DNA from: Clostridia bacterium
GTDB lineage: Bacteria > Bacillota > Clostridia > UMGS1883
NCBI GenBank assembly: GCA_017505525.1
Contig: JAFVPB010000044.1
Coordinates: forward strand, 76,662-120,799
Length of the DNA stretch: 44,138 nucleotides
Direction: 5' to 3'
The notes under the pieces were generated by a model. It had not been told where the DNA came from. It saw only the letters and a list, made by a program, of their open reading frames with translations, and did no database searches. Each line of letters begins with the position of its first letter. Position 1 is the first letter of the stretch. The translations under genes and the position numbers were made by a program. Positions 7,135 through 44,138 of the stretch are shown piece after piece.

Positions 7135-7182
7135 AAAGGCTTCCCCTTGAGGGGAAGCTGTCACGAAGTGACTGATGAGGTG
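7135..7182 (+). repeat. Two-hairpin repeat, left copy of cassette 1
   Basis: The layout is AAAGGC, a TTCCCCTTGAGGGGAA hairpin, CT, a second hairpin GTCAC-GAA-GTGAC, then TGATGAGGTG. The stop codon of the P-loop kinase gene directly abuts the right edge. The inverted partner is at 7709-7757. The same left copy, nearly base for base, is at 33109-33157. I recognise this kind of repeat from other clostridial genomes, where read-through yields spurious SPQGEA-type peptides. Confidence 0.85.
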
Positions 7183-7704
7183 TTAATATTCTAAATCAAC
7201 ATTTACACTATATTTATCATCAATAAGTATATAATGAACATTGTGTTTTTCTGCCAGTTCCAAAATCAAACTGTTTTCCTCAATAGCACTTTCCATTGTG
7301 TAATCTTCATCGTTCAAACGATTTTCAATCACACGCGCGTACTTTGTTATATCTTTATAATGATTCTTGATATAGTTTTCGCTCATTACAAGACAGTAAT
7401 ATTTGATATTTTTTAGATAGTCATTTTCAAAATCTTTTTCCCAATCAAAAGGAATATAACATCCCTCTACAATCAAATTTTGATTATTTTCTATAGCAGT
7501 TTTAATTATTTCACGGACAATAGGCCATAAATACTTTGTGAGTTCTACATCCTCACTCATAGGCGTAAGGTCAGTTTGTTTGCTACGAATCAATCCCATT
7601 TTCAAATGGTCTATTGACAGATAAGGATATTTATATTTTTCAAGTAATTTCTGTGCCAAAACAGTTTTACCTGTATGTGATGCACCTGTAATTAATATTA
7701 TCAT
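7183..7704 (-). CDS. P-loop kinase-like ATPase inside a repeat-bounded cassette
   Basis: This is a compact P-loop NTPase of 173 residues, likely cytoplasmic. The Walker A motif is GASHTGKT (residues 7-14) right at the N-terminus, followed by KYPYLSIDHLKMGLIR and a LIVEGCYIPFDW strand. This resembles small nucleoside/AAA_33-type kinases that phosphorylate small molecules; the substrate cannot be told. The gene fills the space between two inverted two-hairpin repeats. Its TAA abuts the left repeat, and its Shine-Dalgarno site GAGGTGG, 4 nt before the ATG, is the inner end of the right repeat. A promoter-like repeat at 7780-7805 faces it. The kinase fold is firm; a specific name is not. Confidence 0.75.
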   Translation of the reverse strand: MIILITGASHTGKTVLAQKLLEKYKYPYLSIDHLKMGLIRSKQTDLTPMSEDVELTKYLWPIVREIIKTAIENNQNLIVEGCYIPFDWEKDFENDYLKNIKYYCLVMSENYIKNHYKDITKYARVIENRLNDEDYTMESAIEENSLILELAEKHNVHYILIDDKYSVNVDLEY

Positions 7705-43309: not shown

Positions 43310-43729
43310 TCAAAATTTATTTCCGCAGCTATCAAGATAACCCTGTAAAATTATTACAGCAGCAATCTTGTCAACCTTAGTTTTTCTTTTTTTACCGCTA
43401 ACTCCACCTTCTTCTAAAATCCTGTGTGCCTCCGTGCTTGAAAGGCGTTCATCCCACAATTCATAAGGAATTCCAAGGCTTTTAGATAAATCTTTTGCAA
43501 ATTCTTCTGTGTACTGTGCGCGGTGCCCGATTGTTCCATCCATATGCTTTGGATATCCTACAACAATTTTTTCAACCCTGTTTTCTTTTGCAACTTCAAT
43601 TGTTTTTTTAAGCTGAATATCTCTGTTTTTTTCACAAATGGTATCAAGAGGAGTTGCAATCATTCCAAGAGCATCACTTACTGCAACGCCTATCCTGGCT
43701 TCACCATAGTCAAGCCCCATTATTTTCAT
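43310..43729 (-). CDS. ruvX: Putative Holliday junction resolvase / pre-16S rRNA nuclease YqgF
   Basis: YqgF/RuvX is an RNase H-fold nuclease needed for 16S rRNA 5' maturation and proposed to resolve recombination junctions. The 139-residue protein has MGLDYGEARIGVAVSD (first catalytic Asp), IVVGYPKHMDGTIG, ELWDERLSSTEAHR (Glu), and KIAAVIILQGYLD (last Asp). RBS GGAGGAGG. It heads a short operon with DUF1292; the usual upstream alaS and yrzL are missing because a divergent tRNA locus lies there. Confidence 0.96.
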   Translation of the reverse strand: MKIMGLDYGEARIGVAVSDALGMIATPLDTICEKNRDIQLKKTIEVAKENRVEKIVVGYPKHMDGTIGHRAQYTEEFAKDLSKSLGIPYELWDERLSSTEAHRILEEGGVSGKKRKTKVDKIAAVIILQGYLDSCGNKF

Positions 43730-43844: not shown

Positions 43845-43873
43845 TTGATTTTATATAATTGTTGTTGTATAAT
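43845..43873 (+). promoter_or_regulatory. Promoter of the tRNA-Leu locus
   Basis: TTGATT (43845-43850), 17 bp and a perfect TATAAT (43868-43873) lie 14 nt before the first tRNA-like copy. The -10 sits inside a palindrome TTGTAT-AATA-ATACAA. Confidence 0.8.
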
Positions 43874-43887
43874 AATACAAGTCTTAT

Positions 43888-43970
43888 GCGGATATGGCGG
43901 AATTGGCAGACGCGCATGGTTCAGGCTACGCCACCTCGGTGATTAAATAGGTTAAGCCGGATTTATCCGT
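43888..43970 (+). pseudogene. tRNA-Leu-like copy with identical 5' half and diverged 3' half
   Basis: Bases 43888-43925 are identical to the first 38 bases of the intact tRNA-Leu (44052-44089), through the anticodon. The rest is different, yet tRNA-like pairing remains: GCGGATA can pair with TATCCGT near 43963-43969 as an acceptor stem, GCATGG with CTACGC as a degenerate anticodon stem, and CACC-TC-GGTG resembles a leucine-type variable arm. There is no CCA and no clear T-loop. It is either a decayed duplicate or a tRNA-like leader of the real gene. Confidence 0.65.
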
Positions 43971-44051
43971 TTAATATGTGAGGATTAAGCAGTTTTGCTC
44001 CTCCTCGGGTTACCTCTCCCGTGTAAAAATTAAGGGGTTAAAACTAAATAT
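43971..44051 (+). other. Spacer between the two tRNA-Leu copies
   Basis: No gene is visible. It can fold into a GAGG/CCTC stem with inner AGCA/TGCT, and into CGGG-TTACCTCT-CCCG. There is no T-run that would stop transcription before the intact tRNA. Confidence 0.4.
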
Positions 44052-44138
44052 GCGGATATGGCGGAATTGGCAGACGCGCATGGTTCAGGTCCATGTGAAA
44101 GCGATTTCATGCAGGTTCAAGTCCTGTTATCCGCACCA
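44052..44138 (+). tRNA. tRNA-Leu (anticodon CAG)
   Basis: The cloverleaf is complete over 87 nt. The acceptor GCGGATA pairs with TATCCGC, the D-arm contains AATTGGCAGAC, the anticodon stem CATGG/CCATG holds loop TTCAGGT with CAG, and there is a long variable arm TGAAAGCGATTTCA and T-arm CAGGTTCAAGTCCTG. The 3' end ACCA is encoded. It decodes CUG leucine codons. The window ends exactly at its last base. Confidence 0.97.

Follow-up and report, generated by a model that had tools for sequence, protein, structure and literature searches.

A contig end in a Clostridia genome that probably marks a serine-recombinase element replacing the tRNA-Leu gene it interrupts

We analysed a stretch of 44,138 nt (the window) that reaches the end of a contig from a Clostridia bacterium, and conclude with considerable confidence that it ends at the attL, or at an attL scar, of a large serine recombinase integrative element that replaces tRNA-Leu. 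In the mechanism that we propose, the crossover made by the recombinase would fall at T33-N34, within the anticodon loop of a tRNA-Leu gene of the host, so that the host promoter and the 5′ half would remain upstream, the latter as a dead fragment. The element end would bring, in this order, a recombinase half-site, a pseudoknot leader RNA and a complete tRNA-Leu; the convergent recombinase gene and the cargo would come next, with the host 3′ half at the far end. Leucine decoding would be kept because the host promoter would now transcribe the complete tRNA-Leu of the element, by read-through. In relatives we found paired ends, the recombinase gene, a reconstituted host tRNA, horizontal spread and serial insertion, and we infer that the locus in the window arose as theirs did.

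Layout of the contig end

The features of the region are collected in Table 1. Positions 43888-43925 repeat the 5′ half of tRNA-Leu(CAG) over 38 nt without a mismatch, being identical to 44052-44089 (41 nt when three upstream nucleotides are counted), and a gap of 126 nt separates this copy from the intact tRNA-Leu, the single tRNA called by ARAGORN, just as an earlier sequence-only reading had described. The last base of the contig (120799) is the end of the tRNA CCA, position 44138, and because the contig stops there the sequence 3′ of the tRNA is not visible. The strong promoter that had been claimed before the half-copy is present as a consensus match, but the scan taken alone is weak evidence, with 4 sites against 2.8 expected; a similar promoter also stands in front of the tRNA-Leu array at L014, a locus from the same genus. 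No promoter was detected by the consensus scan immediately before the intact tRNA, which agrees with the claim that it has none of its own there.

Table 1. Features at the end of the window, in positions of the 44,138-nt stretch
Feature	Positions	Strand	Basis
Upstream neighbour gene, presumably YqgF/RuvX-like	43310..43729	-	
Predicted host tRNA promoter, -35 TTGATT / 17 nt / -10 TATAAT	43845..43873	+	consensus scan, 10/12
Disrupted host tRNA-Leu(CAG), 5′ part up to the putative crossover dinucleotide TC (T33-C34)	43888..43922	+	38-nt identity
Element end, presumed recombinase half-site (AGGCTACGCCACCTCGGTGA...)	43923..43950	+	first AGG matches tRNA
Small hairpin SL0, CGGA-TTTA-TCCG	43958..43969	+	source of the acceptor-stem match in the sequence-only reading
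Leader stem SL1, GAGG-(ATTA bulge)-AGC-loop-GCT-CCTC	43980..44003	+	covariation
H-type pseudoknot	44006..44038	+	covariation; own vs swapped partners 0/500
Pseudoknot stem CGGG/CCCG	44006-44009/44018-44021	+	covariation
Pseudoknot loop ACCTCT pairing with AGGGGT; A-rich linker TGTAAAAATTA	44012-44017/44033-44038	+	
Intact replacement tRNA-Leu(CAG), reaching the contig end	44052..44138	+	ARAGORN

The boundary between the disrupted tRNA and the element end was set by the attP inverted repeats and the attL/attR pairs of relatives, which would place the crossover in the window at 43921-43922. The presumed half-site recurs, the same or nearly so, in L090, L114 and L129, all with a recombinase gene, and by eye it resembles the half-site of related elements (CGnCACnTCGGTGA). 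In L129 the tRNA is identical to that of the window, and a large serine recombinase gene lies after it in convergent orientation.

The copy in the window was the only CAG tRNA-Leu found by DNA search in its own genome, where we found no second tRNA-Leu 3′ half and no recombinase of this subfamily (the matches share 40-47% identity across some 50 aa). The ruvX neighbourhood contains no tRNA in nine relatives, so that the window has no known empty site. The same genome also carries a tRNA-Leu(TAG) without leader (L134, G000:C45 6584-6667), with a convergent, distant large serine recombinase of about 30% identity downstream at about 7.0-8.4 kb; this locus is possibly another tRNA-Leu element.

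Recurrence, paired ends and serial insertion in related genomes

A search of 60 related genomes with the 294-base window end matched the leader in three further genomes (L004, L010, L027). In every one a 5′ half of tRNA-Leu comes first, followed after about 125 nt by an intact tRNA-Leu with anticodon TAG. The L010 leader as query gave matches in 21 of 391 class genomes, some of them weak; the weak matches L053, L054 and L055 contain neither leader nor tRNA. Between the genus of the window and a genome of another family the leader is 98% identical. Scanning the genome collection for an exact pattern returned 55 stretches, 49 of them judged real, and six were left out as chance (L078, L089, L093, L109, L123 and, having neither tRNA nor 5′ half, L102 from Desulfocarbo); L104 and L060 are one contig. 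Nearly all of the relatives are MAGs of gut Clostridia, obtained in several projects.

The arrangement of a tRNA-Leu 5′ half, the same leader of ~125 nt and a tRNA-Leu, which the sequence-only reading had suggested looking for in relatives, is present in 33 of the 49 valid stretches, with 35 cores because L107 and L128 carry two each. Every valid core is followed by a tRNA-Leu sequence, intact or interrupted, or by another core, except in L085, where the contig stops before anything after the core. The 5′ half was not seen in the remaining 16 (in L075, L111 and L113 it is degenerate or at the stretch edge). Host halves often differ from the tRNA of the element in the acceptor or anticodon stems. 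A viral origin of the leader was rejected: its pattern matched once in viral contigs (L130), by chance and inside another tRNA gene. Phage records matched in parts, at coordinates that point to the tRNA copies alone.

The loci were scanned for tRNA 3′ ends lacking a 5′ part, and the other half of the host tRNA was found on the same contig at 2.6 kb in G086:C30 and at 18.5 kb in G182:C9. Three more 3′ halves (G786, G222 and G044) came from pattern searches of two ten-genome sets; in these genomes the 5′ and 3′ halves lie on different contigs. When joined, the halves of each of the five genomes gave a sequence that ARAGORN calls as tRNA-Leu, its acceptor stem pairing at 7/7; crossing a TAG host with a CAG host, or the two TAG hosts with each other, lowered this to 4-6. 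Joins among the three CAG hosts were interchangeable, and because these also give 7 pairs only two of the five pairs are individually distinctive. As the host halves rejoin into an intact tRNA-Leu, we conclude that the elements insert at T33-N34 of the anticodon loop; an insertion at this loop was among the proposals of the sequence-only reading, and the paired element ends and reconstituted tRNAs of these five other genomes bear it out.

Within a type (CAG or TAG), the element ends beside the 3′ halves resemble one another. Read by eye, they make up imperfect inverted repeats together with the leader side, with TC at the centre for CAG and TT for TAG. The attP repeats, read by eye from the attL and attR of relatives, are CCGATTGGACGC/GCGTCACATCGG around TC and TTCACATA/TATGTGAA around TT; for the attP type of the window itself one half-site is known. 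In five relatives attL and attR with a common short core reconstitute attB. A group I intron in the anticodon loop was rejected: a complete tRNA follows, not a 3′ exon only, and a group I core found no match in the window end.

At many loci a gene for a protein of 539-554 aa lies downstream and runs toward the tRNA. The three recombinases tested from relatives all contain the Pfam domains Resolvase, Recombinase and Zn_ribbon_recom and share 41-70% pairwise identity. A convergent recombinase lies within 2.5 kb in 15 of the 21 loci in which a 5′ half is present and 500 nt or more are available downstream, and in 1 of the 13 valid loci with as much downstream sequence and no 5′ half seen, this one (L111) being a distant relative with 37% identity at the edge of the stretch. 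The other six of the 21 (L094, L095, L099, L107, L110 and L125) may be scars; the L099 recombinase is farther off, at about 2.6 kb. Downstream of the G182:C19 recombinase are a relaxase and MobC. The ORFs of the 2.6-kb G086 element include no relaxase or mobilization protein that we could see, and a 162-aa protein beside its recombinase (L061 5682-6170) has no Pfam match; the 18.5-kb element of G182:C9 (L060) carries a type I restriction-modification system with HsdM, HsdS and HsdR domains. In keeping with such scars, the tRNA of L080 and of L094 runs on into a different 3′ sequence. The L080 tRNA-Leu (7168-7251), with a 5′ acceptor strand GCGGATG against a 3′ strand CGCCCGC and one A-C mismatch, is apparently chimeric, as if the 5′ part of an element and the 3′ part of a host had recombined.

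Before one intact tRNA, L043/L057/L128 have at least three D-loop-type fragments, one T-arm-type and two anticodon-type fragments, and L004/L126 have a D-loop-type fragment and then an anticodon-type one. Such arrays of dead 5′ halves would be the expected outcome of repeated insertion into the newest intact tRNA.

Other kinds of tRNA-Leu fragment were also seen. A second kind of 5′ fragment is broken in the D loop (GGCGGAATTGG|...) and continues into a structured-looking insert and then a complete tRNA-Leu (L012 1309+, L014, L021 with two copies, L004, L075, L103 and L124); in a sub-kind (L030, L046, L106, L128, L129) GGCAGAC/GGTAGAC resumes after the insert. In a third kind (L058, L049, L057) the break falls within the T arm (GGTTCAAGTCC|GTGAACCCTTTTTAAGGG...), and these fragments come with a new tRNA-Leu and a short leader. 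L073 (G234:C6) and L175 (G234:C46) have a core and a tRNA-Leu, with a lone 3′ end from T arm to CCA about 75 nt on, in one of them followed by a terminator-like hairpin; we read these two as small replacement scars without a 5′ half.

The leader RNA and the explanations weighed

Within the leader lie a stem with a bulge and a pseudoknot of the H type, in which compensatory changes occur. Across 49 aligned cores (46 distinct ones and three further from L103 and L115), 94.1% of cells pair and 7 of the 16 leader pairs show changes on both sides, in a MAFFT alignment that undercounts divergent cores because it is not structure-aware. None of 500 shuffles equalled the observed paired percentage or covariation score, and pairing falls to 46-54% when the partner strands are slid out of register. 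The pseudoknot loop scores 8.76 with its own strand, compared with a maximum of 7.73 in 500 permutations (30 representatives), and covariant partners include TAGTTTCC/GGAAACTA (L112), GCCTTT/AAAGGC (L175) and ATCCTC/GAGGAT (L105). The conservation of GCTCCTYCTYGG and CGTGTAAAA is partly by construction because the scan pattern fixed both. With a covariance model the leader was found in 21 of 391 genomes of the class and, apart from the genome of the window, in 1 of 398 of a phylum sample; the matches in G160, G380 and G535 look like chance, and L170, L171 and L177, with no tRNA, were treated as such. Tandem cores occur in L115 (three), L169 (two) and L103. In L082, L098, L115, L122, L169 and L175 cores precede the tRNA-Leu after a promoter-like region with no 5′ half, and the leader is thus a functional RNA apart from the dead half.

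We suggest only tentatively that the leader helps the expression or maturation of the tRNA. It might represent a new RNA class, structured and specific to tRNA-Leu genes, that promoter-trapping serine-recombinase elements spread as a cassette of leader and replacement tRNA, making the host dependent on their tRNA. The RNA would then act on the tRNA, not on an mRNA, as a sensor, ribozyme or antitermination element. We hold this reading, with these roles, to be possible but less likely than not. The leader could also be a cis-regulatory or processing RNA of host tRNA-Leu genes that recombinase elements captured together with the tRNA, the dead halves being a by-product. The strong covariation and the six loci with cores directly after a promoter-like region argue for this, and it is compatible with the element explanation rather than exclusive of it; however, a leader that is absent from most genomes, with a chance-like single match in the phylum sample, is unlike an essential regulator, and a scan of the window region found no terminator-like site, so that no attenuator is visible. 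On this evidence a host origin is conceivable, though we would not presume it. The sequence-only reading had considered the upstream copy as a leader regulator, and the conserved pseudoknot might have such a role, whereas the half tRNA, unseen at 16 of 49 valid stretches, could not.

Two further explanations for the leader concern the dead half beside it. In a folding model that leaves out pseudoknots, and in which the boundaries of several 5′ halves were misplaced by 1-2 nt, the native acceptor stem in the window has a probability of 0.00 and the upstream pairing 0.98, although the native fold, when forced, is only 3 kcal/mol worse (-71.7 vs -74.7). On paper the upstream copy may thus compete in folding, which was among the proposals of the sequence-only reading. 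The upstream copy wins where the acceptor strands are the same (window, L090, L104, L127, L128 and L129; native pairing ≤0.02), so that some safeguard seems needed, and the leader might insulate the new tRNA against misfolding with the identical dead half. Yet mean native acceptor pairing over 27 loci was 0.53 with the leader, 0.67 with an 8-nt replacement and 0.45 with shuffled leaders in this pseudoknot-free model; insulation at equilibrium is unsupported because the leader does no better than the 8-nt spacer, and cores occur also where the dead half is absent. The outcome may also depend on the order of synthesis, on the pseudoknot and on RNase P, and we consider insulation unlikely. Self-cleavage of the leader, releasing the tRNA from the dead half, would suit the highly conserved unpaired TGTAAAAAT linker of the pseudoknot, which at most loci, judged by eye, ends some 4-16 nt ahead of the tRNA. 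The leader, though, has no Rfam match at the gathering score and matches no ribozyme family even at permissive thresholds, and RNase P is expected to cut at the tRNA anyway, which leaves self-cleavage improbable as well. The upstream copy might also fold as a tRNA-like decoy or RNase P substrate; the sequence-only reading, which named the latter, had pointed to an acceptor-like pairing (GCGGATA/TATCCGT) and a leucine-like variable arm. The pairing exists in the window at 7/7 (43888-43894 with 43964-43970), but its partner sits in an element hairpin that also forms locally, and it is not maintained when the host stem differs, being full in 9 of 36 rows for relatives and 3-5/7 in 15, with L117, an additional row, misparsed; no support was found for the variable arm, and we give the decoy next to no credence. 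Equally far-fetched is an assembly chimera, or a tandem duplication with a decayed first copy, as the ending of the contig at the tRNA might suggest: the 33 other contigs with the same order exclude the misassembly that the sequence-only reading had named as its refutation, the structure occurs across many assemblies and inside contigs too, and decay fits neither an insert up to 98% conserved between families nor host halves unlike the intact tRNA.

Meaning and comparison with known systems

Replacement by a serine-recombinase element, the reading that we prefer, implies that the middle of a tRNA gene can serve as an address for mobile elements, which would break the gene, make use of its promoter and bring along a complete tRNA as a substitute. 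The host tRNA supply would become dependent on element DNA, as for the sole CAG tRNA-Leu found in the genome of the window, and elements could stack at one promoter. A conserved pseudoknot RNA unmatched in Rfam stands in front of tRNA genes, and its role is directly testable. In open-licence PubMed Central we found no description of the leader, nor of a serine-recombinase element with a complete replacement tRNA.

SCC elements are moved by Ccr recombinases and target rlmH, with no tRNA involved. The present recombinase is, like Ccr, a large serine recombinase of the same broad family, with NCBIfam matches far below the cut-off, but the target here is tRNA-Leu and not rlmH. Islands with tyrosine integrases restore only the 3′ end of a tRNA; the target tRNA is functional after insertion in both systems, whereas the present element would replace the whole tRNA and borrow only the promoter.

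PMC6861422 describes ICEMh1/ICEPmu1-like elements of Pasteurellaceae whose integration site is the anticodon loop of tRNA-Leu and which leave behind a functional tRNA copy and a partial one. For these elements it proposes tyrosine recombinases, with a direct repeat across the loop and restoration through the element end. The anticodon-loop site and the pair of functional and partial copies are common to both groups, and the present elements differ in having a large serine recombinase and a complete tRNA behind a structured leader of ~125 nt. The review PMC5704250 treats integrative mobilizable elements with serine recombinases in Firmicutes, with a 2-bp core described for Tn4451. The present elements resemble those described there in their single serine recombinase and internal target site; beside one of the present recombinases lie a relaxase and MobC. 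The site-specific cases reviewed there disrupt dispensable genes, whereas the present element would resupply the gene that it breaks.
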